Below, piece after piece: positions 1-22,872 of a stretch of 22,872 bases of DNA. Below the pieces are notes generated by a model, which worked only from the letters and a program-made list of their open reading frames with translations, had not been told where the DNA came from and did not search any database. Both the position numbers and the translations under genes were made by a program. Numbering within the stretch: the first letter of the stretch is position 1; each line of letters begins with the position of its first letter. The DNA lies in contig PWOD01000178.1 of the NCBI GenBank assembly GCA_003557545.1, forward strand, positions 1 through 22,872. Direction: 5' to 3'. The DNA is from a bacterium (GTDB lineage Bacteria > T1Sed10-126).

Positions 1-656
1 AGCTCGACCAGCGCCTGCTTCTGACCCTCCGACAGCCCCACTTTCTTTAAAAAACGACGCAGATCCGGTTGATTTTTTTGATGGATAAGTTTCCACAACT
101 CAGCCCGATCCGGGGCCTCTAAAGAGAGACCTTCGAGTAATCCCTGATAGACCTCCACATTGCCAAGATCAACAACATAATTTTCCAGGTTACAACAGTC
201 CAGAAGCTCAAACATTAAATTCAACAGACTGCGGTCGGCAGCCAGCTTATCCTCACCAAGAATCTCCGCACCAAACTGCTGAAACTCCCGAGATTCTCCG
301 CGACGCAGTTCGAAATCTCTGAAATTCCGACAGGAGTAACAGTATCTTCCGGGAAGTTGCTCCGACTCCAGTCGACCGGAAAGAATTTTAGCGACCTGGG
401 CGGTAGCATCCGGCCGGAGAGCAAGCCGCTCACCCTGTCCATCATAAAACTGATAGGTTCGACGGGCCAGCTCCCGACTGACTCCCCGGGTAATAGAATC
501 GTAATAATCCAGGGTTGGCAGATCTAACTCCAGAAACTCATGGCGAGCAGCAGTATCAAACAACTGATTGACCAGCAGCCGTTTACGGCGGCTATCCTCC
601 GGCAGGTAGGCCCGGACACCGGCCGGTAAAAGTGTTAGTTCACGTGAAATACTCAT
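1..656 (-). CDS. hisZ: ATP phosphoribosyltransferase regulatory subunit HisZ, partial
   Basis: The reading frame runs off the left edge, so only the N-terminal 218 residues are present. They form a class II aminoacyl-tRNA-synthetase-like fold related to histidyl-tRNA synthetase. The motif-2 region shows LRPDATAQVAKIL near residue 80 and REFQQFGAEILG near residue 120. HisZ is the catalytically dead HisRS paralogue that partners short-form HisG in the first step of histidine synthesis. The short, divergent motif 2 and the start MSISRELTLLPAGVRAYLP favour HisZ over a true HisRS, but the C-terminal part that would settle this lies outside the window. It starts 59 bases after the aminotransferase stop and is probably cotranscribed with it. 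In many Bacillota hisZ heads a his operon, so hisG may follow to the left (inference). Confidence 0.8.
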   Translation of the reverse strand, partial: MSISRELTLLPAGVRAYLPEDSRRKRLLVNQLFDTAARHEFLELDLPTLDYYDSITRGVSRELARRTYQFYDGQGERLALRPDATAQVAKILSGRLESEQLPGRYCYSCRNFRDFELRRGESREFQQFGAEILGEDKLAADRSLLNLMFELLDCCNLENYVVDLGNVEVYQGLLEGLSLEAPDRAELWKLIHQKNQPDLRRFLKKVGLSEGQKQALVE

Positions 657-715
657 GTTTGATCACTTCCTCAAAATTTCGTCAATAACTTACTGATGAC
701 TGGCAGCCTAAGATT

Positions 716-1867
716 TTAGCTATCCAGTAGAGAACCGGCAACCTCTTGAGCTGTTTTAAGCATCGTTCCGGGGCGAGTTTTATAACCAAATTTAACTAAA
801 CTCAGCTCCAGGGCGGACAGTGCTGCTAACAGGTCAAAATAGTCAACATCCCCCAGATGACCGATCCGTAAAATTCGTTGTTGTAACTCTTCCTGTCCGT
901 AAGGTATATAAAGTTTACAATTTTTATAGATATAATCATGAATTTTTTTAGCCGGCAACCGGTCGGGTAATTTTACCGCAGTTCCAACAACCGACGGCAC
1001 GCTGGAAAATATTTCTAATCCTGCAGCCACCACCGCTGAGCGACAGATGGTGGCCAGATTTTCATACTGCCGGTAAACCTCGTGGGGACCACGGTGGAAA
1101 ATTTCCTGTAAAGAGTTAAGCACTGCCCTTAACAAAGAAATTGGCGGTGTCCAGACCGTCTGCGAACCAGTTTCAAACCTATCCAAAGCTCGTGCCAGAT
1201 CAAAATAAGGCACCGGACATTCAAGCCTTTTCAAAGCTTCGACAACCCGGGGACCGACAGCCAGAAAGGCCAACCCGGGCGGGGCCATCAGAGCTTTCTG
1301 GGAACCACCAACTACCAGATCGACCCCGGCTGTTTCCGGAGAGAACGGTTCGGCACCCAACCCACTAATAGCATCGACAACAACCAGCGGGCCCAATTCA
1401 GCAATCATCGGGGCTAATTTTTCAATTGGATGGCGGACCAGAGTGGAGGTTTCGACCATAGTTAAAAAGACAGCTTTAACATCTCGAGCGGACAGCAGAT
1501 CTGAACGAAACTGCCGGGGATCGACTGCTTGCCCCCGCTCCACCCTGTGGACTATTATATTACAGCCAAAAGCCTCTAACAGCTCAACCCAGCGACGGCC
1601 AAACTTGCCACTGTCCACAACCAGCACAGTATCACCAGGCGAAACCGTATTAAGAACCGCCATCTGCATCCCTCCGGTACCGGTCGCCGCCACCGGTATA
1701 ACCGGCCAGTCAGTTTCAAGTAACCGCTGCAGGTATGCAGAGAGCTCCCCGATAACCCGGGAAAACTCAGCTGTTCGATGGTATTCCAATGATCTGGCCT
1801 GTATCAGGCGGGTAGACTCAGGTTGAGGAGTGGGTCCGGGAGCAATAAATCGCTGTTTAAACCACAT
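716..1867 (-). CDS. Class V PLP-dependent aminotransferase (serine-pyruvate / alanine-glyoxylate type)
   Basis: A 383-residue fold-type I aminotransferase. It has the family's N-terminal GPTP (residues 11-14), the cofactor aspartate in VVVDAISGLGA (about 165) and the Schiff-base lysine in GGSQKALMAPPG (K191). This family includes serine-glyoxylate and alanine-glyoxylate transaminases, the so-called soluble hydrogenase 42-kDa subunit, and more distantly 2-aminoethylphosphonate transaminase (PhnW). The start ATG is preceded by a strong GGGGGAG site. It lies 69 bases after clpX and 59 bases before hisZ, which suggests amino-acid metabolism, perhaps serine or glycine interconversion. Because a phosphonate locus lies about 10 kb away, a PhnW-like role was considered, but the location does not support it. 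Length is normal for the family. Confidence 0.82.
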   Translation of the reverse strand: MWFKQRFIAPGPTPQPESTRLIQARSLEYHRTAEFSRVIGELSAYLQRLLETDWPVIPVAATGTGGMQMAVLNTVSPGDTVLVVDSGKFGRRWVELLEAFGCNIIVHRVERGQAVDPRQFRSDLLSARDVKAVFLTMVETSTLVRHPIEKLAPMIAELGPLVVVDAISGLGAEPFSPETAGVDLVVGGSQKALMAPPGLAFLAVGPRVVEALKRLECPVPYFDLARALDRFETGSQTVWTPPISLLRAVLNSLQEIFHRGPHEVYRQYENLATICRSAVVAAGLEIFSSVPSVVGTAVKLPDRLPAKKIHDYIYKNCKLYIPYGQEELQQRILRIGHLGDVDYFDLLAALSALELSLVKFGYKTRPGTMLKTAQEVAGSLLDS

Positions 1868-1925
1868 TACAACTCCCCCGCCGGAGAGATCAAATAGCAG
1901 CTTTCAGAACAACTAACAGGTCTGA

Positions 1926-1940
1926 CTGAGTTCAACTCAG
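1926..1940. repeat. Perfect short palindrome over the clpX stop codon
   Basis: Two 7-base arms (CTGAGTT and AACTCAG) flank a single central base and span the clpX stop codon at 1937-1939. No T-run follows on either strand, so it is not a standard intrinsic terminator. It could be a weak hairpin or a protein site between clpX and the aminotransferase, or chance. Confidence 0.3.
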
Positions 1941-3196
1941 GCCGACTCTTTTTCCTCTTTTTCTCCCGGATAGACACAGATCGGTTTCTCTTTACCACGG
2001 ATCGTATCAGCCGTTATAACACATTCCTGAATCTCATTATCATCCGGTATATCATACATAATATCCAGCATGGCGGTTTCCATGATAGATCGTAACGCCC
2101 GCGCACCGGTGTCACGCTTAATCGCCTCAGAAGCAACTTCTTCAAGAGCTTCGGGGGCAAACCGGAGTTTCACATCATCCATTTCGAAAAGAGTCTTATA
2201 CTGATCTACCAGGGAATTTCTTGGATCCTTTAAAACTTTTATCAGATCATCCCGATCCAGTTTATCCAGCGTCGCAGTGACGGGAATTCGACCGGTCATT
2301 TCAGGAATGAAACCAAAATCCAATAGATCCTTGGGCTGAACATGCTGAAGAATCTTACTGCGTTCTTTAGCGTCAAGGCTGGTAACTTCCGAACCAAAAC
2401 CCACAACATTGTTGTTCATTCTACGTTCGATGATCTTTTCCAGCCCAACAAAGGCACCGCCACAGATGAACAGTATATTAGAAGTATCAATCTGAATATA
2501 TTCCTGGTGGGGATGTTTACGGCCGGCCTGGGGAGGCACATCGGCAACAGTTCCCTCAATAATCTTAAGTAATGCCTGCTGGACTCCCTCACCACTGACA
2601 TCCCTGGTGATCGAAGGATTATCAGCTTTACGGGCGATCTTATCGATTTCATCGATATATATTATCCCCCGCTCAGCCTCCTGAAAATCAAAATCAGCCG
2701 CCTGAATCAGACGCAACAGGATATTTTCTACATCCTCTCCTACATATCCGGCTTCAGTCAAAGCAGTGCTGTCGACGATTGCAAACGGCACCTCAAGGAT
2801 ATCGGCCAGCGTCCGGGCCAGCAAGGTTTTCCCACAACCTGTTGGGCCGATCAGCAGAATATTACTTTTTTCCAATACAGTATCAGTATTAAGCTTCTTG
2901 GGCATCATAATCCGCTTGTAGTGGTTATAAACAGCAACCGAAATAACCTTCTTAGCCCGATCCTGACCGATCACATATGAATCAAGATAGTTATATATTT
3001 CGGCCGGCCGGGGAAGGGTAAACTCACGATCCTCAACCTCTTCAAGCAGATCCTCCGATACTATCTCATTACAGACCTCAATACATTCATCACAGATATA
3101 AACATTAGGGCCGGCGACAAGACGTTTAACTTCCTGCTGCTGTTTTCCACAAAATGAACACTGCAAATCCTTTTCTTCATCACCATAGCGAAACAT
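1937..3196 (-). CDS. clpX: ATP-dependent Clp protease ATPase subunit ClpX
   Basis: Full-length ClpX, 419 residues. The N-terminal C4 zinc-binding domain has CxxC at 13-16 and CxxC at 35-38. The AAA+ module follows, with Walker A GPTGCGKT (117-124), pore loop GYVG (150-153), Walker B IIYIDEID (178-185), the RKH-type loop in GRKHPHQEY, the VGFG segment that docks on ClpP, and sensor-2 [10 protein letters not shown]. It unfolds tagged proteins and feeds them to ClpP in the cytoplasm. The upstream gene is clpP, 194 bases away, and tig precedes that, which is the classic order. A nested inverted repeat lies in the clpP-clpX gap. No truncation or odd residues were seen. Confidence 0.98.
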
Positions 3197-10151: not shown

Positions 10152-10943
10152 CTAAAAACCCTGTTCCCAGAAATGTTGCGAACCGGGCCGACCTCTCCCG
10201 TAACCCAGTAATCGGTTCAAAGCATCGGCGCCAGTATCAATAAAAATCTTCTTTTGCCAGTCCTCCCAGTCCCGGTACATTCCATGCCGTGCTTTAAACC
10301 CCTGCTCAATCCGATCCAGCTCTGGCTGGTCCACGGAAAAGCCAGTAAATCCCAGGAGTTTTTTTGCAGAAGTTTGAAAATCTCTCGTAAACTGCTCATA
10401 TTTAATCCTGATTATCCGCTCTTTAAAACTGTTTAAAAGAGCCAGTTGACCCTGTGTGAAATCAATAAACCGGAGAACAGCTCCAACAAATCTTTCCTTT
10501 TTTTCAGTTCCCAGAAAATCAAACTTAGTCTGTGGCCAGTGATCGGGATCGGGATTATAAAAGGATTCCACCTGGTCACGGCCATCCCTGGTAGTCCAGA
10601 CAAATCGCGATTTGGGAAAAACTTTCATAAGTGCCGGAACAATATTAAAATCAAACAAAAACTTGAAAACAAACCTCCGATGTATTGCCAGGGTTAACCG
10701 GTCTAACGGCAGACTGTTAAAGCCCAATCGCTTCATCAACTCCGGGCGGGGATTTTCATTGCTGGATCCACAATTTATTTTATCCTCCGTTTCAGAAACT
10801 GAAGAGCACTGGATAAACTCCCAGGGTTCCTTGTAAGCCGGTTGCTGGAAGGCTCCAAAGAAATAGCTGGTTAACCAGGAAGAACCGGTCCTGGGAAGTC
10901 CATAGATCCAGATTGGATATGATCGTCGGGCCAGCCGTTTCAA
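10152..10943 (-). CDS. PAPS-dependent sulfotransferase, N-terminus cut by an in-frame TAG
   Basis: The uninterrupted part is 263 residues from a TTG at 10941-10943. It shows the PAPS 5'-phosphosulfate loop YGLPRTGSSWLTSYF near residue 14 and the 3'-phosphate-binding segment KSRFVWTTRDGRDQVESFY near 109-127, so it belongs to the sulfotransferase superfamily that moves sulfate from PAPS to a hydroxyl or amine. The frame is open further upstream to an ATG at 11055-11057, except for a single TAG at 10977-10979. The residues on both sides of that stop read as one continuous helix-like protein. The catalytic core is complete and may be made from the TTG. It is the last gene of the leftward phosphonate run. 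Its acceptor is unknown. Confidence 0.75.
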   Translation of the reverse strand: MKRLARRSYPIWIYGLPRTGSSWLTSYFFGAFQQPAYKEPWEFIQCSSVSETEDKINCGSSNENPRPELMKRLGFNSLPLDRLTLAIHRRFVFKFLFDFNIVPALMKVFPKSRFVWTTRDGRDQVESFYNPDPDHWPQTKFDFLGTEKKERFVGAVLRFIDFTQGQLALLNSFKERIIRIKYEQFTRDFQTSAKKLLGFTGFSVDQPELDRIEQGFKARHGMYRDWEDWQKKIFIDTGADALNRLLGYGRGRPGSQHFWEQGF

Positions 10944-10976
10944 TTGATCGGCAAACTCCCTCTCATCCGCTGCCTT

Positions 10977-11057
10977 CTAAAGCGACTCCAGGCGACTCGG
11001 ATCGGCATTCTTTAAAAATCTTTCCGGATAAAGGTTTAGCAGTTCTTTCCCATTCAT
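10977..11057 (-). pseudogene. Detached N-terminal piece of the sulfotransferase gene
   Basis: ATG at 11055-11057 opens a 26-codon frame (MNGKELLNLYPERFLKNADP, then SRLESL) ending in TAG at 10977-10979. The same frame then continues without another stop (KAADEREFADQLKRLARR) into the sulfotransferase P-loop. A CAG to TAG change (C to T in a Gln codon) would explain the break. TAG also ends lepA, the hydrolase and this gene, so it looks like an ordinary stop here. Confidence 0.6.
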
Positions 11058-11119
11058 AACTATCATTCCGATCTTGAAAATTAATAAAACTTATCGTCCT
11101 ATAAACCAACGGTGAACTC

Positions 11120-11833
11120 CTACTGTTTTGCTGTGGTTTCAGTTAAAAAATCCCTGATCCGGCCCGCATAAATCTGTTCACCGGCAAACCAGGGAAGATT
11201 ATTATGACCGGCCCCTTCGACAAACCAGCGTTGTTTGGGTTGATCGCTCTTCTGATACAGCAGACGGCCAAGTGCTGGTGGAACAACCCGATCAGCCGTG
11301 CCATGAATTATCAACTTATCAATACCCGCGCCCGATTTTTCAGCCCGGGCAAGATTTTCCAGACTATTAAAATTCACCCGTAAAAGTTTTTCAATTCCCG
11401 GAACCGGTAAAACTACTCGAGCCATTGCTGCAGCGTTGGGAAAACCACTTTCAAGAATAATTCCAGCTGGACGATGGTAAGCTGCAGCGTGGGTTGCCAT
11501 GACCGAACCCAGTGAGCGACCATGATAGAATAAGGGACCTTCTGTCTGTTTTTTTAAAAAATTAACCGCTGCTTCAACATCCCTGTACAGCCCCTGTTCA
11601 GAAGGTTTTCCCTCTGAAAGACCATATCCCCGATAATCAAAAATCAAAGCCGTCCAACCCGGCGGAGGAACCAGTTCTAACCACCAGATTCTACCGGTAA
11701 GATTTCCCGCATTTCCCGGGAAGAGCAATAACGCCGGAGAATCGGACCGACCCGGTTTTAAAACTCCAGTTAAGGTTATATCGTCCTCTGCTGTAAACTC
11801 TACCGGTCGATAGCTGGCTCCAACTGTGTCCAA
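11120..11833 (-). CDS. Alpha/beta hydrolase (BEM46-like), membrane anchor cut off by an in-frame TAA
   Basis: The uninterrupted frame gives 237 residues from a TTG at 11831-11833. It is an alpha/beta hydrolase with oxyanion region LLFPGNAGN, DYRGYGLSEG, nucleophile elbow GRSLGS (Ser near 107), acid HGTADRVVPP and catalytic His in EGAGHNNLP. This is the pattern of the BEM46/YfhR group of membrane-anchored serine hydrolases whose substrates are mostly unknown. The expected N-terminal membrane helix is present in the same frame upstream, but a TAA at 11846-11848 separates it. It sits 49 bases after the alcohol dehydrogenase, in the phosphonate run. Restart at TTG would give a soluble protein. 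The role in the pathway is unknown; ester cleavage of an intermediate is a guess. Confidence 0.75.
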   Translation of the reverse strand: MDTVGASYRPVEFTAEDDITLTGVLKPGRSDSPALLLFPGNAGNLTGRIWWLELVPPPGWTALIFDYRGYGLSEGKPSEQGLYRDVEAAVNFLKKQTEGPLFYHGRSLGSVMATHAAAYHRPAGIILESGFPNAAAMARVVLPVPGIEKLLRVNFNSLENLARAEKSGAGIDKLIIHGTADRVVPPALGRLLYQKSDQPKQRWFVEGAGHNNLPWFAGEQIYAGRIRDFLTETTAKQ

Positions 11834-11845
11834 CCAGTCAGCACT

Positions 11846-11965
11846 TTAAGGCCGTGGATGGTAGATCCCCCAGCTCTCCTGGATTCTGATATAAGCCCAG
11901 AGAAGCACCAGCAGAGCTACCAGCACAAAGATCAGGTAACCGACATATAAAGATGGAAACTTCAT
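11846..11965 (-). pseudogene. Detached N-terminal membrane anchor of the hydrolase gene
   Basis: ATG at 11963-11965 opens 39 codons (MKFPSLYVGYL, a hydrophobic helix, then SWGIYHPRP) ending in TAA at 11846-11848. The same frame continues as SADWLDTVGASYRPVEF into the hydrolase. BEM46-type proteins normally carry such an anchor followed by a YxPxR-like linker, so this is one gene split by a nonsense codon. A CAA to TAA change (C to T) would account for it. Confidence 0.6.
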
Positions 11966-12014
11966 TAACCGTGAACCCTCTCCATAAAACTAATTTTACC
12001 CCACGACTAACCTC

Positions 12015-13160
12015 CTATAACTCCAACCAGCTGGCGGTCTGATCGACTATCCCCACGATATCCTGACGTTCAACAGGCCGAAAGTTATTACCGGCACGAT
12101 CCGGCGTATACATCTCATCAACCAGTTCAAACAGCAGCTCCCGATCGTGAAGATAGTTCTTCACCAGCCGCTCAACTTCCAGAGTTTCCAACAACGTCTT
12201 CAGGGCTTCAGTAAAATTATCCGGCCCCATAAACCCGATTCGAGCGGCGATCTGGGCAAAGCTGGCCGGATCCGCCTGGCAATTAAACTCCCAGATAGCC
12301 GGAACTGTAATACTGCAGGCCAGTCCGTGGGGAATTCCCAGATGAGCGGTCAAAGGATAAGATATTGAATGGGCCAGGGCAGTCTTAGTCTGACTTATCG
12401 CCAGACCTGACAGCAGACTGGCCGTAACCAGCGCAGTGCGATATTCAAGCTCGTCGGGAGCCTGTAGAGCTTTCTGCAGATTGTCCAGCACCAACCGCAC
12501 TGTTTCGGCGGCAAGCAGATCTGTTACCGCGCTCCGGTTATGGTTCCAGAGAGCCTCCAGACCCTGGCTCAGGGCATCCAATGCTGTAGAGATTGAAACC
12601 TCATCAGGCAGAGTCAATGTCAGCTGCGGATCAACTATGGCTCGCCGGGGAAATAGCTGTGGCCCCGACAGAGAATATTTTTGTTTTTCCTCCCCATCCC
12701 AGAGGGTAGCGAAGGGAGTAACCTCACCCCCGGTTCCATGGGTTGTCGGAACTGTTGTAAGATCGAGTGGCCGACTACCTGATAATAACTCTGCTGATTG
12801 AATAACAGCTTTCAGTCCGGTGTTGGGAAAATCGTCAGTCAGCAGAACCGATAAAGTTTTTGCCGAATCGATAGCACTGCCACCCCCAAGCCCGATAATC
12901 GAATCAAACTGCCCTTCTGACAGACTGTGAGCGGCCGCTTCCAGATCAGCAATCTGTGGGTTGGGCGTCACATTATCATAGACCGCGGCCAGCCGCCGGC
13001 CCAACAAATTTCTGACTCTATCAGTTAAACCGCGCCGGGTGCTCCCCCGGGTGGTGACCAGCAAAATCTTTTCGCCGGGAACCAGCCTGTCCAGTTGCTT
13101 CAGACCGGCAGCTTTAAACAGTATTTCTACCGGATTAACATATTGCCAGCTATGCTCCAT
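12015..13160 (-). CDS. Iron-type (group III) alcohol dehydrogenase, probable phosphonoacetaldehyde reductase
   Basis: A 381-residue group III alcohol dehydrogenase with the NAD(P)-binding GGGSAIDSAK (92-101) and the THGTGGEVTPF segment (141-150). Metal ligand positions are Asp195, Gln199 (usually His in this family), His264 and His278. In phosphonate loci such enzymes (PhpC/FomC type) reduce phosphonoacetaldehyde to 2-hydroxyethylphosphonate. Its place after pepM, ppd and a nucleotidyltransferase supports that role, and no dedicated AEP transaminase lies in the run. The ATG start has a GGGAAG-type site. It lies 36 bases after the nucleotidyltransferase and 49 bases before the hydrolase. The Gln at position 199 may be a subfamily trait or may alter metal use. 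Confidence 0.82.
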   Translation of the reverse strand: MEHSWQYVNPVEILFKAAGLKQLDRLVPGEKILLVTTRGSTRRGLTDRVRNLLGRRLAAVYDNVTPNPQIADLEAAAHSLSEGQFDSIIGLGGGSAIDSAKTLSVLLTDDFPNTGLKAVIQSAELLSGSRPLDLTTVPTTHGTGGEVTPFATLWDGEEKQKYSLSGPQLFPRRAIVDPQLTLTLPDEVSISTALDALSQGLEALWNHNRSAVTDLLAAETVRLVLDNLQKALQAPDELEYRTALVTASLLSGLAISQTKTALAHSISYPLTAHLGIPHGLACSITVPAIWEFNCQADPASFAQIAARIGFMGPDNFTEALKTLLETLEVERLVKNYLHDRELLFELVDEMYTPDRAGNNFRPVERQDIVGIVDQTASWLEL

Positions 13161-13196
13161 CCTAAAACTTCCCTTTCAATCAAACCCTAAACTTAC

Positions 13197-13904
13197 TCAG
13201 CTCGCAAAATCTTCTCTGGCAGCTGCCAGATCAACCTCATCATCAATCTCTCTCCAGGGTCTGCCTCCCGTCTGTAATAGTTGGAACTCAGCCCCCTGCT
13301 CAGCCAGCCGGTTAAAGGCGGCGGTATCATAAGCATTAAACTGCCCGTCAAGCAGCAACTCTCGAGCCATCTCTGTAAAACTTTCCAATCCATTCTGAGA
13401 AAAGAAACTCAGCCCAGTCCACTCACCATCCGCTTCAGCAAGGGGTATTTCCTTACTTGATTGTTGAAATTTTCCATCTGAAAGCTGAATTTTCATTGCC
13501 TCCTGATGAATACTATCTGGATCATAAATCAGGCTTAGATCGGCCTGTGAACGCTGCTCCACTGCCGTCCTGAGAATTTCTGGATGATAGATAAGATCAC
13601 TATGGGAATAAAGCAGTTCTCCCCGTCCAAGATGAGGAATTGCCATCCACAACGAGGCCATATTATTGGTACTGGCATAAAAAGGATTGTAGATATATTC
13701 AACCTGCTTGCCCAGGTAATCAACCAGCTTATCCGATTGAAAACCGACCACCAGGTAGATTTTTTCAACTCCATTTTCCCGAAACAGACGGAGGGCCCGA
13801 TCAATCAACCTCTCACCGTCAATTTTCAACATACATTTAGGCAACTCAATTGTTCGCGGATAAAGCCGCGAAGAGCGTCCGGCTGCAACAATCAAACCAT
13901 TCAT
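13197..13904 (-). CDS. Stand-alone nucleotidyltransferase, probable phosphonate cytidylyltransferase
   Basis: A 235-residue nucleotidyltransferase of the sugar-phosphate/choline-phosphate NTP-transferase fold. The N-terminus carries GLIVAAGRSSRLYP and ELPKCMLKIDG, followed by SHSDLIY (metal site) and WREIDDEVD near 217-225. An EADGEW motif (157-162) also occurs in the C-terminal domain of the neighbouring PEP mutase fusion. Such enzymes (PntC type) make CMP-phosphonates from CTP and 2-aminoethyl- or hydroxyethylphosphonate. The start is the ATG at 13902-13904, eight bases after AAAGGAG; a GTG one codon upstream is less likely. Gaps to ppd (41 bases) and to the dehydrogenase (36) fit one operon. 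The exact substrate is inferred from context. Confidence 0.82.
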   Translation of the reverse strand: MNGLIVAAGRSSRLYPRTIELPKCMLKIDGERLIDRALRLFRENGVEKIYLVVGFQSDKLVDYLGKQVEYIYNPFYASTNNMASLWMAIPHLGRGELLYSHSDLIYHPEILRTAVEQRSQADLSLIYDPDSIHQEAMKIQLSDGKFQQSSKEIPLAEADGEWTGLSFFSQNGLESFTEMARELLLDGQFNAYDTAAFNRLAEQGAEFQLLQTGGRPWREIDDEVDLAAAREDFAS

Positions 13905-13945
13905 CACAACTACTCCTTTAAATCAGTCTCTAAAGATCAGATACC

Positions 13946-15103
13946 TCAGGTTAAGTTTGTCCCGATCGCCGCGGCTAACCGCCGGAAGTTTTCTTCCGGG
14001 GTAAAAGGCGGGCGGGGAAGTTCAGATGGAGAACCGGGCTTAATTTTCAGCCGTATGAACTGTGGTCCTTTCCTGGTAAAGGCCTCCTGTAAAGAACGGC
14101 TGTATTCGGCGGCGGTGCGGGCCCGATAAACCCGCCGGTAATTACAGGCGGCAGCCACACCGGCAAAACTAACCGCCGGGGAAGCGGTCGCCTGCCCGCC
14201 GGTTGAATCATGACACTCATTATCAAGTAAGATATGTAAAAGATTCTTCGGTTGATAAAGACCAACTGTTGCCAGATTACCCAGTTTCATGAGGGCTGAA
14301 CCGTCACCATCCAGGACAACAACCGGCAAGTCAGGTCGATTTAACGACAGCCCACATCCAATCGCCGAGGCAGTCCCCAGCCCCCCTACTACGTAAAGAT
14401 TTTTTTCCCTATCATCTACCGCATAAAGCTCCCGCCCGGTTTTACCGGTCGAACCGATGACAACGGTCTCCTCCTGCAGCTGCTCAACCAGCAGTTCTAT
14501 TGCCCGCGTCCGGCTAAGCTCAGGTTGCCGATGATTATTTGCCGGCGGCCCGTGACCGAGGAAATTATCGGCCGGGTCTGCAGCTGTCACGCTCAACTCA
14601 TACGGAGCCACCAGCCCCCGGGGCATCAGGATAGCATAAGGCCGCTGCTGACTGGCGAACCACCGGTCAGCGTCGGCCAGCAGTTCCTCCAACTGTGACA
14701 AACTGTCCGGCATTCGTGACCAGGGTATATCCAATTTTTCCAACAGACCGGGGGTTATTTTGCCCATAAACTGATGCTGCGCTGCGTCTGTCGTGCCCGG
14801 CTCCCCTCGCCAGGTCACCACCATCAGACTGGGCACTTTAAAAGGATAATTTAACGACGTGAGTGGATTGACCATATTTCCAAGTCCAGAATTCTGACAG
14901 AGCAGTAAATTTTTGACCCCGGCCAGACTGGCTCCAAAGTTCAACCCGACCGCTTCCCCTTCACTGCTGGCAGCCAGATACCGTAACCGTTTTTCCTCAA
15001 TAATCCGGTTTATCAGAGGAGTTAAAATCGAACAGGGAACACCACTTGCCTGACGATAACCACTTTCGAGAAAAAGTTCGACAACCGCTTCTGCATCCAA
15101 CAT
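13946..15103 (-). CDS. ppd: Phosphonopyruvate decarboxylase
   Basis: A 385-residue thiamine-diphosphate enzyme that removes CO2 from phosphonopyruvate to give phosphonoacetaldehyde, pulling the unfavourable PEP mutase step forward. The N-terminal pyrimidine-binding half has the activating glutamate in SEGEAVG (Glu50) and QNSGLGNMVNPL. The C-terminal half has the diphosphate-binding motif starting GDGSALMKLGN (266) and ending with Asn295 in LDNECHDSTGGQ. Both hallmark stretches are typical of this family. The start ATG is one base after the pepM stop, with an AGGA site inside pepM, so the two are tightly coupled. No truncation or odd residue was seen. Confidence 0.95.
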   Translation of the reverse strand: MLDAEAVVELFLESGYRQASGVPCSILTPLINRIIEEKRLRYLAASSEGEAVGLNFGASLAGVKNLLLCQNSGLGNMVNPLTSLNYPFKVPSLMVVTWRGEPGTTDAAQHQFMGKITPGLLEKLDIPWSRMPDSLSQLEELLADADRWFASQQRPYAILMPRGLVAPYELSVTAADPADNFLGHGPPANNHRQPELSRTRAIELLVEQLQEETVVIGSTGKTGRELYAVDDREKNLYVVGGLGTASAIGCGLSLNRPDLPVVVLDGDGSALMKLGNLATVGLYQPKNLLHILLDNECHDSTGGQATASPAVSFAGVAAACNYRRVYRARTAAEYSRSLQEAFTRKGPQFIRLKIKPGSPSELPRPPFTPEENFRRLAAAIGTNLT

Positions 15104-15104
15104 T

Positions 15105-16715
15105 TTAAAAGTCCTGGGCCCGGCTCAGGTCTTCCAGATCATCAACGTCAACCCAGTGGCCGGTAATATACAGGATACTAACATCATTCCCCGCTTCAAC
15201 CAGCCGGTTGATCAGCTGTTTGAACCTTAACTTTCTAAACTCCTGACTATTCTTCTGTAACTCCTCCAGTATACGAACAATCTCCCGGGTTCCCCGGGCC
15301 GAGCTCTTCATCAATCCGATCCACTCACCATCCGCTTCCTCAACCGGCATGGTGGGATCCATCCTGCACAATTTTACCGGCTCTTCTGTATAATTAAGGC
15401 TATAGGAACGGGAAGCTTTAACCAGATCACGGTAATCATCACGAGGTTTTGTCTCTCGAAAGGCCGCGTCGACGACCAGCACTATATCCCCCTCCTCCAG
15501 AAGCAGATTATTTAAAATATACTGCCGGAAAATAATATCTCCATAGCTAATCACCATGGGGCCCTTTAGAAATTCCCGGGCAGCAGCCAGCGAGACAAGT
15601 TCACCCGCCCCCTCATAATCCTCCGTATCGATAAACTGCATACCGGACGCCTTGATCTGCTGCTTTTTATATCCGCGGACAGTTATCTGATCAGTAATTT
15701 TAAATTTTTTGAACTGCTCCTGCAGTTTATGCAGCAGCGGTTTACCTCCCACCTCAATCATTGTTTTAGGCCGATCAGTAGTTAAAGTTTCAAGCTCTTC
15801 CCCCCGGGTTGCGGCTAAAAACAGGGCACGATAACCACTGTTCTGTTCGGGTAAATATCTCTCTTCGGCCGTTAACAGCTCTTCAGCCTGCTGCAGTCGA
15901 AATATCTCTTTCACAGGGACAATATCATCTTCCGCCTTAACCGGTGTTTTTTCATTATAAATATCCGCCGTAACCTCCTGCATAGCCCGAATTGAAGCGC
16001 GAAGATTATGGTTGGCCCAGATAACCAGACTGATACCGGCCTTTCGATAAAATTCAACCGGCGTACTGTAATAGGTGGTGGGTACAATCACCAGTGGAAG
16101 ATCACGCTGCCAATTTTCGGCAAAAGACAGCACATCTTCCGGACGTGATTTTTTGCTGTGAACAAGAATCGCATCAGCTCCGGCATCAGCGTAAAGATTT
16201 GCCCGTTTAAGCGCCTCCTCCAATCCCCAACCCGCGATAAACGCCTCAATTCTTGCAACCACACAAAATTCCGCGCTCTGTTGAGCATCTTTTCCTGCTG
16301 CGATTTTTCCGGCAAATTCATGCGGATCGGCCAGCGGCTGTTTTTCACTCTGGATGAAAGAATTGGTTTTGGGGAACTCCTTATCTTCAATACAGACCCC
16401 GGCCACCCCGCGCTGTTCCAGTTTTGTTACCAGACGCCGCATGTTGTTGAAATTACCGAACCCGGTATCACCATCCAGCAGAATCGGCAGGTCAGAAGAA
16501 TCAGCCATAAATTCAACCTGGTTAAGCACCTGCGTCCAGGAAAGCTCATTGTTATCCCGCACCCCATGAGCCGCCGAAATAGTTAATCCACTGGCCCAGA
16601 TGCCATCGAACTGACTTTCAGAAACAATCCGAGCGCTAATACCATTGTGAGCCTCCATTAAAAAATTCAACTCATCATTATAAAGTAACTGCCTGAGATT
16701 TTTACTCTGATCCAT
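15105..16715 (-). CDS. pepM: Phosphoenolpyruvate mutase fused to a nucleotidyltransferase domain
   Basis: The mutase interconverts PEP and phosphonopyruvate, forming the C-P bond that commits carbon to phosphonates. Residues about 1-275 are an isocitrate-lyase-superfamily barrel with [10 protein letters not shown] (80-88) and the diagnostic [10 protein letters not shown] (110-119). Residues about 293-536 are a nucleotidyltransferase domain ([33 protein letters not shown] at 460-465, [10 protein letters not shown] near the end). The glycine loop is altered to AATRGEEL, as is usual in PEP mutase fusions. The ATG at 16713-16715 follows GAGGAG at seven bases; a GTG five codons upstream overlaps that site and is rejected. 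The fused domain probably activates the phosphonate as a CMP derivative. First gene of the leftward run. Confidence 0.95.
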
Positions 16716-16787
16716 TAAATTACTCCTCACTGGCTATTTTTTGGTACAATCAAACTTAAAGAACGATCAGCCTGCTGGCGGAGTTTA

Positions 16788-16815
16788 ATTATATGTAATA
16801 TACTGTCAGCCTCAA
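16788..16815 (-). promoter_or_regulatory. Promoter of the pepM run
   Basis: On the reverse strand a perfect TATAAT (16788-16793) lies 16 bases after TTGAGG (16810-16815), giving a leader of about 65 bases to pepM. No equally good rightward promoter was found in 16816-16958. An isolated GGAGG at 16902-16906 there has no start codon at a useful distance. Confidence 0.5.
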
Positions 16816-16958
16816 AGAAGTTTGTCTGATCCTGACAATGGGCTGGCTGCTTGACAGTGGCCGCTGATTAATAAACAGTTACTATTCTATCAGAATAAAT
16901 TGGAGGTCAGCTTTACAGCCACAGGTTTACTGATCAACCGCCAAACGGCTAAATAACT

Positions 16959-17921
16959 ATGGATTTCACTAACTACAGAGCGGTCCAAAACCGAAAACTT
17001 CCCCCCCTGTTTAAATTTCTAATCAAACCGGTAGAGCTGCTGCTACTGCCTGTAGTTGTTCGTCTTCCCCTGCAGCCAAATCTCTGGACTCTATTATCGC
17101 TGGCCGCCAACCTGCTGGCCGTCATCTGGATATATCTTCACCTGCCCTGGGGCTGGATTCCACTGTGGCTCTATCTATCCCTGCTTTTCGATGGATTTGA
17201 CGGTGCGGTCGCTCGCTGGCGCAATCAGACAAGCCTGGTGGGGGCCTGCGCCGACACACTGACCGATATTTTTGGTTCCTCACTGCTGATCGCCGCCGCG
17301 GGAGCCTACTGGCTGAGCACAACTACCGATCCAGCCCGGGCAGGCCGGTTAATTGTCGGGGTCATTTTCCTTGAAATTCTCTACCAGACGACCCTCGTAT
17401 GTCGAGCTATATCGGGGAACCTGCTGAAACAACAGATATCTCTCCCCGCCTGGAATCAATGGTTAGAAGACCGTAATATACTGCCCTTCTACTTTATCGA
17501 CTCCCTGTTCCTGATTATCGCTGTTGGTCCCCTGCTATTTTCCTTTCAAACAGTTTTTTCTCTTTTACTGCTCTACCAGGCAATCTCTCTAATCTATCTG
17601 CTACTAATACTGTTTCGAGCAGCCCTCCAACACCCACGGGGAGCAACAATTATCCGGGGAATAATAACTAAACTGCTGCTCCGGGCCGGCTTTTTTATGA
17701 TTTTCATCCATGCTGTCCCACCGCTTTTTCTCGCACCCTTAAGAGCAACCCGATTCCCCTGGCTAATTACTGGCTGGCTGGAATACTGGATCTTCTACTG
17801 CAGCATAATCATCCTGCTAAAACAGGGCCGAATTATTCCCCGACAAGAACCGCAGCGCAGCAGCTTTCTGGCTGAATTAACCCAAAAAAATATGCAGTTT
17901 TTTCAACAATGGTACCCCTGA
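16959..17921 (+). CDS. CDP-alcohol phosphatidyltransferase family membrane protein
   Basis: A 320-residue integral membrane protein with several hydrophobic segments (about 25-65, 65-77, 105-120, 165-220, 245-300). The family signature D-x2-D-G-x2-A-R-x8-G-x3-D-x3-D is complete, with Asp78, Asp81, Gly95, Asp99 and Asp103. Such enzymes move the phospho-alcohol group from a CDP- or CMP-linked donor to an alcohol acceptor at the membrane. Beside a pepM/ppd/cytidylyltransferase run, the natural reading is transfer of a CMP-activated phosphonate to a lipid or glycan acceptor, giving a C-P head group (inference). An in-frame TAA just upstream fixes the ATG at 16959, but there is no good ribosome site. 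It is divergent from pepM and overlaps the next gene by 13 bases. Confidence 0.9.
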   Translation: MDFTNYRAVQNRKLPPLFKFLIKPVELLLLPVVVRLPLQPNLWTLLSLAANLLAVIWIYLHLPWGWIPLWLYLSLLFDGFDGAVARWRNQTSLVGACADTLTDIFGSSLLIAAAGAYWLSTTTDPARAGRLIVGVIFLEILYQTTLVCRAISGNLLKQQISLPAWNQWLEDRNILPFYFIDSLFLIIAVGPLLFSFQTVFSLLLLYQAISLIYLLLILFRAALQHPRGATIIRGIITKLLLRAGFFMIFIHAVPPLFLAPLRATRFPWLITGWLEYWIFYCSIIILLKQGRIIPRQEPQRSSFLAELTQKNMQFFQQWYP

Positions 17922-18859
17922 ACAACAGCGTCGAAAAACAGGATATACTGCTCAGCCTTGGCTGGTTCCGCTCCGGCACAACCTATCTTTTCAACTGTCT
18001 GAAAAACTCGCTTCCCGACTGGGAACATTTCTATGAACCGTTCAATCCGGGAATTGGTCGATTTGTCGAACAATACCAGCAGCTCCAGCAAAACCACCCC
18101 GGCAAAACAGTTCGTTTAAAGATCAAACCGGGCCAGGAGGATTTTCTTTTCCATCCCTATTTTATCCGCCAGAGATTTGTCAACCGGCGCTTCTCTGAAA
18201 AATTTGGTTTAAAAAACTTCCTGCTATCCAGCCAGTCCCGACAGCCCGATATGGAACGCTATCTGCGGGGCTTAACACGCAGTCCACATCCAATCCATTT
18301 GCAGCTTAACCGGGGGCTGGGACGGCTTCCCTGGTTATCCCGTATATTTCCCCGGGCACGGCTGATAGTCATTCTCCGCAACCCCTGCGCCGTCTGGGCA
18401 TCGATGCAGGGCTATCCGGAAGATCTCCTGGACCCCCGGCTCGATCCGGGAAAATTTCAGCTTAACAGATTACTTTCCGAACTGGTTGAATACCAACACG
18501 GACAGGGAGAGACCGAGCTTAATTTAAAAAAAATCTCATTTCTTTCGCCATTTCAACGATTTTTATTGGCCTGGGGACATCTCCATAAAATCGCCGATCA
18601 GTGCAGACCAAAATTTAAAAAAATCTGCTGGATTAAATATGAAGAGCTGGTTACTGACCAGGCTGAAACAGTTCGGCGGCTCGGCAAAAAACTCGCTTTA
18701 AAACTCCACTATGACCAAGCTATTACTGCTCAACAAAAACCTCTGGAGCGCTGGAAAGGACTGACCAACTCCGAGCTGCTCCAGACCCTTCTAAACTCCC
18801 TTCCTGACGATCATGTCAGCCTGCCTTATCTCCAAAAATTCAACTACTTAACCGACTGA
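17909..18859 (+). CDS. PAPS-dependent sulfotransferase family protein
   Basis: A 316-residue cytoplasmic protein with the 5'-phosphosulfate loop LGWFRSGTTYLF (17-28) and the 3'-phosphate-binding strand ARLIVILRNPCAVWASM (150-166). These mark the P-loop sulfotransferase superfamily, which uses PAPS to sulfate hydroxyls of lipids, sugars or small molecules. The ATG lies inside the end of the CDP-alcohol transferase gene with no Shine-Dalgarno sequence, so translation is probably coupled. The pairing suggests both act on the same lipid or glycan product. The 3' end overlaps the end of the opposing phosphatase-superfamily gene by 12 bases. It differs clearly from the interrupted sulfotransferase at 10152. 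The acceptor is unknown. Confidence 0.85.
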   Translation: MVPLNNSVEKQDILLSLGWFRSGTTYLFNCLKNSLPDWEHFYEPFNPGIGRFVEQYQQLQQNHPGKTVRLKIKPGQEDFLFHPYFIRQRFVNRRFSEKFGLKNFLLSSQSRQPDMERYLRGLTRSPHPIHLQLNRGLGRLPWLSRIFPRARLIVILRNPCAVWASMQGYPEDLLDPRLDPGKFQLNRLLSELVEYQHGQGETELNLKKISFLSPFQRFLLAWGHLHKIADQCRPKFKKICWIKYEELVTDQAETVRRLGKKLALKLHYDQAITAQQKPLERWKGLTNSELLQTLLNSLPDDHVSLPYLQKFNYLTD

Positions 18860-20440
18860 ACTACCGGCCTCCACCGGCTGAGCAAAGGGAAACTCCTGAC
18901 AATCGAAGCTATTGGGAAAACGCTGATTAAGCCGGCGATCCAGTTTTTGGGCCAGCACAGCAGTTGTGGGTGAAATAGAACTTAACAGATTTTCCGACTC
19001 CGAATAATCCTGCCGCCAGTTGTACAGCTCACGCTCTGGTGGATCGGTTTCTAACATCTGCCGAACAAAAGCTACTCGCCGCGCCAGAGAATCGTTTTTC
19101 AAAAATTTGTTAACCACCGGCTGCAGCTGCTCTAACCTGTAAGTTTCACCACGTATTTTATAAAAAACTCGCCAGATAAACTGGTCAACTGGCGCCGCTA
19201 GATCATTTTCATCCAGAGCCGGCAGTTGCCGGTAATATTTATAACCCCGTGAACTAATTATCGCATTCCAGTTAACCAGACAAAACCGGGGGAACTCATC
19301 CCGTAGATCACTTATGGTGGAGCTTTCCGTATAAACATAATACTCCGCCGGTGGCGGATGACGCAGATCATTTCCAGAAAAAGCTGGTGGATCAGACAGA
19401 TCAAACAGACCACTCAGGGTGGGGGCAATATCTACGCTGGAAGAGATTTTCCATCTATCCAGATCAGACTGTTCTAGAGAACTGTTTAACCAGATCGACG
19501 GGACATGGACTAGATCCTCAACCGGCTTACCGGCGTGGTAGAAGGTAGGAATTCGACTTCCCTCCCGGCGGCGAAGGGTCTGGCCGTGGTCAGATGTAAT
19601 CACCGTGACAGTATTTTTACCTATTTCGTCGGTCAGCAAAAAACGACGCAGCTCCGCCAGTTGATAGCTATCATAATGGTTTATCCCCTCAATATACATG
19701 GTGACTAATAGTTTAAACAGCCTGACCGGTTCGATACGTTCCAGCCAGTCAGGTGTTTTGACCTGGAGCTCCCGATGAAATTTCCAGACCGGGTAGTAGC
19801 GGTTGGACTCCCAGCTGATTCCCGGCATCTGACAGACCCCCTGGGCATCATCACGTCCCCAGGAATAATCAAGCTCACACAACCGGGCCAGACGATTGGC
19901 CCAGGCGATAGCCCGATCATGATAATCTGCTGTTGGAGGAAAATTTGACATCATGTAGGTTCCGTGGGTATCGTCGGTATGCATCAGGACAAAAACCGGT
20001 TTCCCCTGATGATTAAGCCGTTTAATCCGCTCAATCAAATTTTTCAACGGTCCCTGACCACACTCATCAAATCGACTATCCGCCTGCAACACAGGCTTAA
20101 GCTTAGGAAAATCTGTCCAAAAGACAGTACGATATCCGGCCCGCTTAAACAGTTTTTCAAGACCAACTGTCGAGGGATCCATCGGTCGGCCATTAGCCGA
20201 GGCAAAAGCTCCATGTTCCCGGGGATAGAGACCGGTTAAAATAGTCGCCAGAGAGGCCGCAGTTCCCGGCCATGGTGAAATCATTCGGCGGGTCATTACA
20301 CCAGCTTTTTTGAGACGATCAAGCTGAGATGTCTGAATTTTCTGCTGCAAACCCAGCTCAGATAATAGTCCCCGGTCAAACTGCCGGTCAACAGCGTCAT
20401 AACGCAATGAATCCAGTACACAGATCAAACAGTTTTTCAT
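18848..20440 (-). CDS. Alkaline phosphatase / sulfatase superfamily protein with Thr at the nucleophile site
   Basis: A 530-residue member of the alkaline phosphatase superfamily. The first metal aspartate is in CVLDSLRYD (Asp10), a second metal site is VITSDHGQTL, and MHTDDTHGTY supplies further ligands. Aligned on the conserved TGLYPxxHG (69-77), the position of the sulfatase Cys/Ser is Thr60 in PGTAASLATILTG, and the usual Arg four residues on is Leu. Formylglycine cannot form from Thr, so a true sulfatase is unlikely. Thr is the nucleophile in phosphodiesterases and in phospho-head-group transferases such as LtaS and EptA. No membrane helix is seen. The start ATG at 20438-20440 has an AGGAG site; a longer frame adds 21 residues. 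It could hydrolyse or transfer phosphonate or phosphate diesters (inference). Confidence 0.8.
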   Translation of the reverse strand: MKNCLICVLDSLRYDAVDRQFDRGLLSELGLQQKIQTSQLDRLKKAGVMTRRMISPWPGTAASLATILTGLYPREHGAFASANGRPMDPSTVGLEKLFKRAGYRTVFWTDFPKLKPVLQADSRFDECGQGPLKNLIERIKRLNHQGKPVFVLMHTDDTHGTYMMSNFPPTADYHDRAIAWANRLARLCELDYSWGRDDAQGVCQMPGISWESNRYYPVWKFHRELQVKTPDWLERIEPVRLFKLLVTMYIEGINHYDSYQLAELRRFLLTDEIGKNTVTVITSDHGQTLRRREGSRIPTFYHAGKPVEDLVHVPSIWLNSSLEQSDLDRWKISSSVDIAPTLSGLFDLSDPPAFSGNDLRHPPPAEYYVYTESSTISDLRDEFPRFCLVNWNAIISSRGYKYYRQLPALDENDLAAPVDQFIWRVFYKIRGETYRLEQLQPVVNKFLKNDSLARRVAFVRQMLETDPPERELYNWRQDYSESENLLSSISPTTAVLAQKLDRRLNQRFPNSFDCQEFPFAQPVEAGSSVG

Positions 20441-20569
20441 TCTTTCACTCCTGATGGTGATAGTCATATCATCGACCGGATCACCCCCGAAGTAAAGCCG
20501 CAAGAGATCGACAGCTGGATTAAAATATTTGGTTTAGAAGAAAAGATTATCCATCCGGACGGTGGGTAA
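20411..20569 (+). other. Open, protein-like stretch without a start codon; possible gene remnant
   Basis: The plus strand is open from 20411 to a TAA at 20567-20569 and has no start codon. From about 20450 it reads like the end of a real protein (PDGDSHIIDRITPEVK, then IDSWIKIFGLEEK). It runs through the gap between the two leftward genes and slightly into the phosphatase-superfamily gene. It may be a remnant of a displaced gene, or chance. No family is recognised. Confidence 0.2.
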
Positions 20570-20571
20570 AA

Positions 20572-22269
20572 TCAGATTACCGAATCATACCAGCCATTAC
20601 ATTTTTCACAGCTGTTAAACGAACTGTTTGATTCCAACTGCTTTTTTAAAAACTCCTGGTGACTGTCGGACAACCAGCAATCAGCCAGGGAATCAGCGCC
20701 GGTCAACCGACCCAGACAGATCTGTTCAGAACCGGTGGGTGCGACGACACAGGGATAGACATCCCCGCCCGGCCCCAGGTAGAGAGCCTCCCTCAAACGC
20801 CGGCAGGGAAACCGTTTGTAAGGGCTGTAATTCGAACTATCTTTACCCAGAGTATTCGCCATTTTTTCACGGATGACCGGACTCCAGGTCAACTTTCCGG
20901 TTCCCTTATAAAAAATTTCACACACCTTCTGGTAATCAATACCAGCCGGACTGTCAAACCGCTTTTCAAGATCAGCCCAGCTAACCCAACCCTCAGTAAG
21001 ATCCCGGTAAGCCTCAAGGTCCTGCTCCTCTGGCAACTGAAAAACTGCGGACAGTAACGGGTCGACTGGATAATCAGGAACTGCCCGTTGACGCCATCTA
21101 CGGGCAAGAGCACGATGGAATAGTTTATAGGCAACCTGGCGCTCCTCAAAACTAACGGAACTTTCAGGAAACCCCTTCAGATAGAGAAAAATTTCATCCA
21201 CCAGGCTGCTAAGCTTGCGGGCCCGACTGGCCGTTAGGTTCACCCCGCCAGTATGCAAACCAATCTTAAGCGGCAGATCCTCGAGCAGCTCCAGAACCCT
21301 TTCCAGCTCTCGACAGGCCAGAGGGTCGAAAAAACAACCGAGCTGGAGATAACGCTGAAACAGGGGATCCGGACGGGCTTCAGACAATCTCTGCAAATTT
21401 TCAACCAGGAGTTCAACCTGCAGTTTGTCCTCTCCACCCTGATAAAACTCCGCACCGGCCAGTGGCACCGACGACGGCAGGTCAAGCTGCAGGGCCAGCG
21501 GTGCGGATGGATGTTCCGCTAACCGGCGGCTGTTGAGATTAACCAGCCGGGAAAAATCAGGCTGCTTGTCGGCACCCATTTGGTTCCAGTGATCGGCGGT
21601 TTTGCGGGTGGTTAGATAAGGTCTGAAAACCCCCGGGCGATGATGTGAAAATAGATCGTCACCCCACTCCAATCGATCTGTCTTAAGCTCTAACTGACGC
21701 TCCATCGGAGCTACTAACCGTGACGGATAAAGCCAGGGGGGGATCTCGGGATTGATCAGAGAATCCGGTGAAAAATCGGTCTTTTGTCTAACCGGATCCT
21801 GATAATTACTACCGAATTTTTCCAGCCCCTGCCCCAGAGCTCTGGCCCGGCTTACCAGGGGCAGACAGTGGGCAAAGTTGACTGAAAACTTTACCAGATC
21901 AAGCTGCTCGTCAACTAACTTTTCAACCGCCAGCTGGAGCAGCTCACATTCCGCCAGAATAAGATATGGGGAATGAAACAAAACCGGTAACTCCGGAGGA
22001 AGTTGCTGTAAAATATTAACCATCCCCCGGTCCTGATAAATCTCCTCCGTAACCCGCTCAACCTGAATGTCATACTGCTGTGCAAAACTGGCCAGCCGGT
22101 CATCAGCTGGTGAGCCGGTTGTAACCAGATAGACTGGCTCACTGTTAAACTTCCCTAACAGCTCAAGCTGGTTTTCAAGATACTGTCCCTCAAGCAGAAG
22201 CTCCGGGTTGAAACCCCAGGTAGAATCAACTGATGAACACTGCATTAAAACTGCTATATCCAATTTCAT
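20572..22269 (-). CDS. Nucleotidyltransferase-like / degenerate radical SAM / SPASM fusion protein
   Basis: A single intact frame of 565 residues in three parts. Residues about 1-150 resemble an SpsF-like nucleotidyltransferase (YLVTTGSPADDRLASFA, then a Pro-rich acceptor region), but the usual ARMxSTRLPGK signature is gone. Residues about 255-380 align with a radical SAM barrel start (LALQLDL), where the CxxxCxxC cysteines are Val268, Gly272 and Phe275; the GGE motif is GCF (311-313). Residues about 485-560 keep a SPASM domain with Cys489, Cys507, Cys518 and CEKC (554-557), which normally bind an auxiliary 4Fe-4S cluster. SAM cleavage therefore looks lost while the auxiliary cluster is kept. 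It starts at ATG 22267-22269 after AGGGTGA. The role is unknown; a scaffold or binding function in phosphonate or glycan assembly is a guess. Confidence 0.75.
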   Translation of the reverse strand: MKLDIAVLMQCSSVDSTWGFNPELLLEGQYLENQLELLGKFNSEPVYLVTTGSPADDRLASFAQQYDIQVERVTEEIYQDRGMVNILQQLPPELPVLFHSPYLILAECELLQLAVEKLVDEQLDLVKFSVNFAHCLPLVSRARALGQGLEKFGSNYQDPVRQKTDFSPDSLINPEIPPWLYPSRLVAPMERQLELKTDRLEWGDDLFSHHRPGVFRPYLTTRKTADHWNQMGADKQPDFSRLVNLNSRRLAEHPSAPLALQLDLPSSVPLAGAEFYQGGEDKLQVELLVENLQRLSEARPDPLFQRYLQLGCFFDPLACRELERVLELLEDLPLKIGLHTGGVNLTASRARKLSSLVDEIFLYLKGFPESSVSFEERQVAYKLFHRALARRWRQRAVPDYPVDPLLSAVFQLPEEQDLEAYRDLTEGWVSWADLEKRFDSPAGIDYQKVCEIFYKGTGKLTWSPVIREKMANTLGKDSSNYSPYKRFPCRRLREALYLGPGGDVYPCVVAPTGSEQICLGRLTGADSLADCWLSDSHQEFLKKQLESNSSFNSCEKCNGWYDSVI

Positions 22270-22537: not shown

Positions 22538-22702
22538 ATGCTGAAAGCTACTGCAGAAAAACTGGTCAACCTGGGCTGGCTGGGATTTTTAGGTTTTCTT
22601 GGGTTTTTGTATCAACCCTTATTCTATCTATTTTTTCTATTCTTTTTCTTCTTTTTTGGCTTCCATTTGTTTCTTGGCGAAAAAAATTCCTCGGCCGATT
22701 AA
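22538..22702 (+). CDS. Small hydrophobic membrane protein, 54 residues
   Basis: ATG at 22538 follows AGAGGAG at nine bases. The product begins with a charged helix (MLKATAEKLVNLGWLG), then LGFLGFLYQP, then a very Phe-rich membrane segment (about 28-46) and a polar tail ending EKNSSAD. It has one or two membrane helices and no recognised catalytic motif. The GWLGFLGFLG run recalls small proteins of the DUF3796 kind, but similarity may be compositional. It is convergent with the glycine-oxidase-like gene, 17 bases away, and too short for most automated calls. Its function is not known. Confidence 0.6.
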   Translation: MLKATAEKLVNLGWLGFLGFLGFLYQPLFYLFFLFFFFFFGFHLFLGEKNSSAD

Positions 22703-22719
22703 CCCTGGTATCCAGACTC

Positions 22720-22872
22720 TTAGCTGTTTAAACGCCCCGGCAGAAAGGGACGGGCACCATCGGGAGTTTTCCCCTCAATCAGCATCTGACGGATAAACCG
22801 AACCGTGATCGGAGTCATAAGAATCCCATTACGATAATGGCCGGTGGCAAACAACATATCATAAACACCACC
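22720..22872 (-). CDS. thiO: FAD-dependent glycine oxidase-like protein (ThiO type), C-terminal part
   Basis: Only the last 50 residues are in the window. The stretch VYDMLFATGHYRNGILMTPIT and the ending RPFLPGRL match the C-terminal FAD/substrate-binding segment of the glycine/D-amino-acid oxidase family. ThiO makes the imino-acetate used for the thiazole of thiamine. ThiO is favoured by GHYRNGI followed by TP, but other family members cannot be excluded without the rest. The stop TAA is at 22720-22722. Confidence 0.7.
   Translation of the reverse strand, partial: GGVYDMLFATGHYRNGILMTPITVRFIRQMLIEGKTPDGARPFLPGRLNS

Follow-up and report, generated by a model that had tools for sequence, protein, structure and literature searches.

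A diverged spiroSPASM-type protein that has lost the SAM-cluster cysteines and kept four auxiliary-cluster cysteines beside a phosphonate gene cluster

A bacterial contig of 22,872 nucleotides, analysed here over its whole length (the window), encodes a 565-residue protein, P0001, for which the best explanation, judged from its sequence, is a divergent member of the two-domain spiroSPASM-type family, nearest to NCBIfam TIGR04321. The three cysteines that would hold the SAM-cleaving cluster have been replaced in place, and four cysteines of an auxiliary-cluster domain have been retained. P0001 is probably a non-radical accessory or adaptor protein with a single [4Fe-4S] cluster, a far-diverged member of its family that takes part in surface glycan or glycolipid assembly.

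The reading frame begins with ATG and has no internal stops in 565 codons; its GC content at the three codon positions (0.61/0.39/0.53) is coding-like and resembles that of the neighbouring genes. The features of the gene are collected in Table 1. The top NCBIfam match of P0001, as of all eight relatives tested, is spiroSPASM TIGR04321. The length class and the order of the parts are the same, but P0001 scores only 30.7 bits (E 1.3e-7) against a curated cut-off of 250, in its C-terminal part alone (residues 477-561); two of the eight relatives pass that cut-off. The sole Pfam domain is SPASM (E 2.9e-7, 31.1 bits, cut-off 21.5), and a Pfam profile search found no Radical_SAM match in P0001.

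Table 1. Positions in the window of the P0001 gene, its parts and the adjoining gene.
Feature	Position	Strand	Basis or remark
P0001 gene, pseudo-radical-SAM/twitch protein, 565 aa	20572..22269	-	Intact ATG-to-stop frame
N-terminal domain, residues 1-230	21580..22269	-	SpsF-like in relatives; P0001 N-domain vs SpsF <1% (hhalign)
Degenerate radical SAM-type barrel region, residues 245-470	20860..21537	-	hhalign over 219-561 and AF2 model of 245-565
Lost SAM-cluster motif, V268..G272..F275 replacing CxxxCxxC	21445..21468	-	Alignment with intact relatives
Changed GGEP motif, FFDP, residues 313-316	21322..21333	-	Alignment
Twitch/SPASM auxiliary-cluster domain, residues 489-558 (C489, C507, C554, C557)	20596..20805	-	Pfam SPASM
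Sulfatase/alkaline-phosphatase-fold gene	18848..20503	-	68 bp downstream of the P0001 gene, same strand; PF00884 E 1e-19

By computation, residues 219-561 belong to this family and share its fold. A profile made from 56 relatives, with P0001 excluded, matches them in hhalign at 98.1% (E 8.6e-14). In hmmsearch the auxiliary/SPASM part reaches 52 bits against the family profile, and the barrel piece alone 5.5 bits (E 3e-4 as a single comparison; best of 200 shuffles, 0.4). An AF2 model of residues 245-565, of modest confidence and made from an input alignment of four relatives, has a pTM of 0.64, a mean pLDDT of 57 and a core pLDDT of 70-81; a full-length model failed (pLDDT 39). The best structural match of the partial model is BtrN (Z 14.7), followed by ChlB, DesII and anSME, with PqqE also matched. 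Its top matches in Foldseek are radical SAM enzymes (DesII, E 1.7e-7), and a profile search of solved structures with a C-terminal alignment that includes P0001 itself returned BtrN (E 1.5e-9). The predicted fold thus has the partial TIM barrel of the radical SAM superfamily. An earlier note, made from the sequence alone, had placed the start of a radical SAM barrel at LALQLDL (residues 258-264) and proposed structure prediction as a check; the hhalign match upholds a fold of this type, and the prediction returned a radical SAM/twitch fold rather than a chain with no barrel.

Alignment by MAFFT with intact relatives such as L024 (IIKLEPTNECHASCFNC) places the first SAM-cluster cysteine column on V268 and the +4 and +7 columns on G272 and F275, exactly the residues that had been named. 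The GGE motif had also been thought altered, and the segment in P0001 reads LGCFFDPLA, with GE changed to FD and the proline retained. By script count, GE stands at the GGEP segment in 54 of the 57 aligned proteins, or 53 without L064, which has GD at the motif. CxxxCxxC, the mark of an active enzyme of the superfamily, is absent throughout P0001 in a pattern scan of the whole protein, despite its 12 cysteines, and it does not occur elsewhere in the chain in any of the relatives that lack it at the usual site. Since the site of the SAM-cleaving cluster is gone, the usual radical SAM chemistry is impossible in P0001.

The C-terminal cysteines are arranged as C489-X12-G-X4-C507-X46-C554-X2-C557, with 8 further residues to the end of the chain. 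A full SPASM domain follows the pattern CX9-15GX4C-gap-CX2CX5CX3C-gap-C, with seven cysteines and two clusters (PMC6231123). P0001 has only the first four of the seven, the pattern that characterizes a twitch domain, though the Pfam SPASM score is above its cut-off. The suggestion that the SPASM cysteines remain is therefore correct as to the four auxiliary cysteines, which by their sequence pattern would form a twitch-like domain with one cluster and not a seven-cysteine SPASM. In BtrN four such cysteines fully ligate one [4Fe-4S] cluster (PMC6231123), and when the SAM-cluster cysteines of that enzyme are changed to alanine the auxiliary [4Fe-4S] cluster still forms (PMC9012708). On these grounds one auxiliary cluster is expected in P0001, and its twitch domain most likely holds one predicted [4Fe-4S] cluster. 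BtrN (4M7T, 4M7S), a twitch-type radical SAM aminocyclitol dehydrogenase, resembles P0001 in its barrel and its four-cysteine, one-cluster twitch; unlike P0001, it has CxxxCxxC (C16, C20, C23) and no extra domain at the N-terminus.

Scans for close homologues with P0001 covered genome contigs and viral contigs, and the first of these returned none from either. A scan of 59 relatives with P0001 gave distant matches only, and a three-row alignment found no match in G001, the nearest kin (same family, and the only such relative in the searched set). Relatives in named records belong to Lindowbacteria and to one Hydrogenedentes bacterium. Matches at E 1e-15, some of them less than full-length, are present in 124 of 149 genomes of the G018 phylum and in 31 of 39 genomes of the G119 phylum, with further relatives in G209 and G068. 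Most relatives are 470-670 residues long; contig ends truncate a few of the frames. Because two members of the G018 phylum, L025 and L033, score above the spiroSPASM cut-off, that phylum is referred to in this text as spirochaete-type.

Among the 119 full-length relatives collected, P0001 included and many of them from few genera, CxxxCxxC is present in 63 and absent from 56. In 49 of the motif-less members all three positions lack cysteine; of the other seven, five have just the middle cysteine, one just the first and one just the last, a partial retention that looks like decay in place. The four auxiliary cysteines stand in all 119, motif-bearing and motif-less alike; the relatives were gathered with a profile that scores highest in the auxiliary-cluster region, so this uniformity is partly a matter of ascertainment. 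With the motif columns excluded from tree building, at least 12 changes of motif state are required, eight of them imposed by well-supported branches; if the motif can never be regained, the number of losses comes to 15. As the tree is a quick one, these counts are approximate. P0001 forms the longest branch, with about 4 changes per column (4.1), and its position in the tree is unsure. The earlier note had regarded a double pseudoenzyme holding only an auxiliary cluster as unusual, a view that the census does not bear out, since the same three cysteines have been lost in so many relatives. To its question whether they are lost throughout the clade, the answer is that the loss recurs without spanning it. 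That about half of the relatives show the same loss points to an independent function for the second cluster.

The N-terminal domain had been described as nucleotidyltransferase-like with its signature lost. A pattern scan found the SpsF signature, (Q/A)RxxSxRLPxK, in none of the 119 family proteins, P0001 among them; it is missing also from members with an intact radical SAM site, so the loss of this nucleotide-binding signature is a trait of the whole family. The likeness to SpsF is seen in the N-terminal domains of the spirochaete-type relatives (hhalign 99%, E 8e-18, 202 columns) and the G119-phylum relatives (94%), but not in that of P0001 (0.7%), which has no significant match to SpsF or to any family set by hhalign (<1% throughout) or hmmsearch. 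An SpsF-like reading of this domain in P0001 is plausible. SpsF itself, the cytidylyltransferase of the legionaminic acid pathway (PMC7439481), is related to the family in two ways: it matches the spirochaete-type N-terminal domains, and its gene is usually close by.

Flanks are short for many loci, and the counts of neighbours are lower bounds. An SpsF-type gene lies within 2.5 kb of at least 40 of 44 motif-bearing spirochaete-type members, compared with at least 24 of 48 motif-less ones, nearly always downstream on the same strand, and SpsG-like genes are found near 32 members of this set, again with short flanks. The spiroSPASM-SpsF arrangement in the G018 phylum is a conserved operon to which the literature found assigns no function. 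At loci such as L112:5521-10644 and L114:5640-8817, the spiroSPASM gene is followed by SpsF, or by SpsF and an SpsG-like gene; in L112 and L113 one gene stands between the two, and the SpsF of L112 carries additional fused domains, a methyltransferase among them. In the G119 phylum FliS lies within 2.5 kb of 16 of 19 members, and those loci that were read at length also contain FliD, FlaG-like and Maf genes. Two motif-bearing relatives of this phylum (L116, L117), which stand beside FliD, FlaG-like, Maf and FliS genes, are candidates for a radical SAM enzyme of flagellin sugar modification. These neighbours link the family to nonulosonate and flagellin glycosylation.

A broader proposition can be put forward tentatively, as a possibility rather than the probable case: in a widespread bacterial family with these links the auxiliary cluster is the indispensable part and functions without the SAM cluster, which evolution has given up about a dozen times, and P0001 is an extreme, non-flagellar example beside a phosphonate pathway. 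The role of SPASM and twitch auxiliary clusters has long been hard to demonstrate directly (PMC9012708), in part because they are accompanied by the SAM cluster. Repeated natural removal of that cluster, with the auxiliary ligands intact in the 119 collected cases, provides ready-made natural mutants for the question. The family also suggests that nonulosonate and flagellin glycosylation has an overlooked component, in spirochaete-type bacteria and in others. An annotation as radical SAM within this family is no evidence of radical chemistry. Among the matches listed from open-licence full-text literature on spiroSPASM, on SPASM and radical SAM pseudoenzymes and on radical SAM proteins lacking CxxxCxxC, no paper dealt with this family, which is a weak form of absence. 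The category is already known, since NCBIfam names another SPASM family, TIGR04347 (pseudo_SAM_Halo), a pseudo-SAM/SPASM protein; it is a different family and is not among the matches of P0001.

The setting of P0001 differs from that of its relatives. The 22.9 kb window has no nonulosonate or flagellar genes, SpsF, Maf and NeuB partners included; other contigs of the host genome encode flagellins, three clear Maf-type PF01973 proteins, NeuB and an SpsF-SpsG fusion. A phosphonate cluster occupies 10152-18859, with an Fe-ADH nearest to PsrA, a nucleotidyltransferase, phosphonopyruvate decarboxylase and PEP mutase, the last with an intact EDKxxxxxNS motif, and then a CDP-alcohol phosphotransferase and two sulfotransferases. 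It is probably a phosphonate pathway for a surface lipid or glycan (phosphonolipid or phosphonoglycan), a role that has been argued for comparable clusters (PMC6697681). Since the partners of the relatives are missing from the window and the neighbouring genes make phosphonate, function is carried over from the relatives to P0001 by inference.

The adjoining sulfatase-fold protein (SPWPGTAASLATILTG) has no C/S-x-P/A-x-R formylglycine motif in its N-terminal active-site region, so that no maturase seems needed; it is probably a threonine- or serine-type phosphotransferase or hydrolase. A role for P0001 as an anaerobic sulfatase maturase was considered and rejected, given this neighbour and the lost radical SAM site.

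In the accessory role favoured above, P0001 would consist of an N-terminal domain that in relatives is SpsF-like and signature-less, a BtrN-type radical SAM barrel and a twitch domain. The barrel would serve as a binding or scaffolding surface, and P0001, without radical chemistry of its own, would assist the cytidylyltransferases and transferases encoded nearby in building a surface glycan or glycolipid. What we infer is the presence of the cluster, the scaffolding function and a connection with the phosphonate or surface-polymer genes of the window.

It has also to be considered that the lone auxiliary cluster exchanges electrons with a separate, intact radical SAM enzyme, which would make P0001 a dedicated redox partner. 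As read from the sequence, both Hydrogenedentes-type loci (L118, L119) have an intact radical SAM/SPASM gene nearby, along with NeuB-like and SpsF-like genes, and intermolecular electron transfer involving an auxiliary cluster has been reported for PapB and QueE (PMC10470005). On the other hand, no other radical SAM gene was recognised in the window, most motif-less relatives have no adjoining radical SAM gene in the loci read, and the fully ligated auxiliary cluster of BtrN has a very low potential (PMC9012708); the explanation is unlikely. One of the two Hydrogenedentes-type loci has NeuA-like and SpsG-like genes as well. At each of them the motif-less relative and the intact gene share a nonulosonate-type cluster, and the two proteins are possibly an enzyme and its pseudoenzyme.

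Alternatively, P0001 could be a non-radical enzyme or a sensor, in which a sugar nucleotide or phosphonate would still bind to the barrel, gated by the cluster in response to redox state or oxygen. The closest solved structures, BtrN, DesII and BlsE, act on sugars or nucleosides, and the retention of the GE segment in most motif-less relatives suggests a ligand pocket under selection. GE has also been lost in P0001, however, and no new conserved catalytic site was seen, so that we think this improbable.

A decaying pseudogene that is open by chance would account for the very long branch, and a second copy of the P0001 gene in the same genome, on contig C137, is already a frameshifted fragment. 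That copy indicates, at the same time, that unselected copies break in this genome. At about 4 changes per column an open frame of some 565 codons would not have survived without selection, yet P0001 has kept the frame, C489, C507, C554, C557, W560 and the KRFPCRRL block, and its codon-position composition is normal; the earlier argument from the intact frame to selection is borne out. Comparison with the C137 relic gives dN 0.32 and dS 0.62, a dN/dS of about 0.5 over only 39 codons, which is too short. A pseudogene or an assembly fault is unlikely, and chance decay in particular deserves very little credence.

That P0001 is still an active radical SAM enzyme with its cluster held by other residues, such as C312 and C319, the two extra cysteines of CFFDPLAC adjoining the former SAM site at the old GGE position, is scarcely credible, since enzymes of the superfamily as a rule carry all three ligands on a single loop, iron cannot be bound by V, G or F, and no such pair appears in the aligned segments of the other motif-less members.

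Two further observations concern the window. The PEP mutase gene (15105-16730, minus strand) also encodes a fused MobA-like nucleotidyltransferase domain, which seems to have a broken signature and may be inactive; a separate nucleotidyltransferase (13197-13907) retains AAGRSSRLYP. The thiO-like gene at the right end of the window (22560-22872) recurs at 94% identity on contig C137, where the frameshifted second copy lies beside it. Positions 1-3042 of that contig (L010, G000:C137) begin, in terms of genes, where the window ends, an arrangement that suggests a tandem duplication or a mixture of strains in the assembly.
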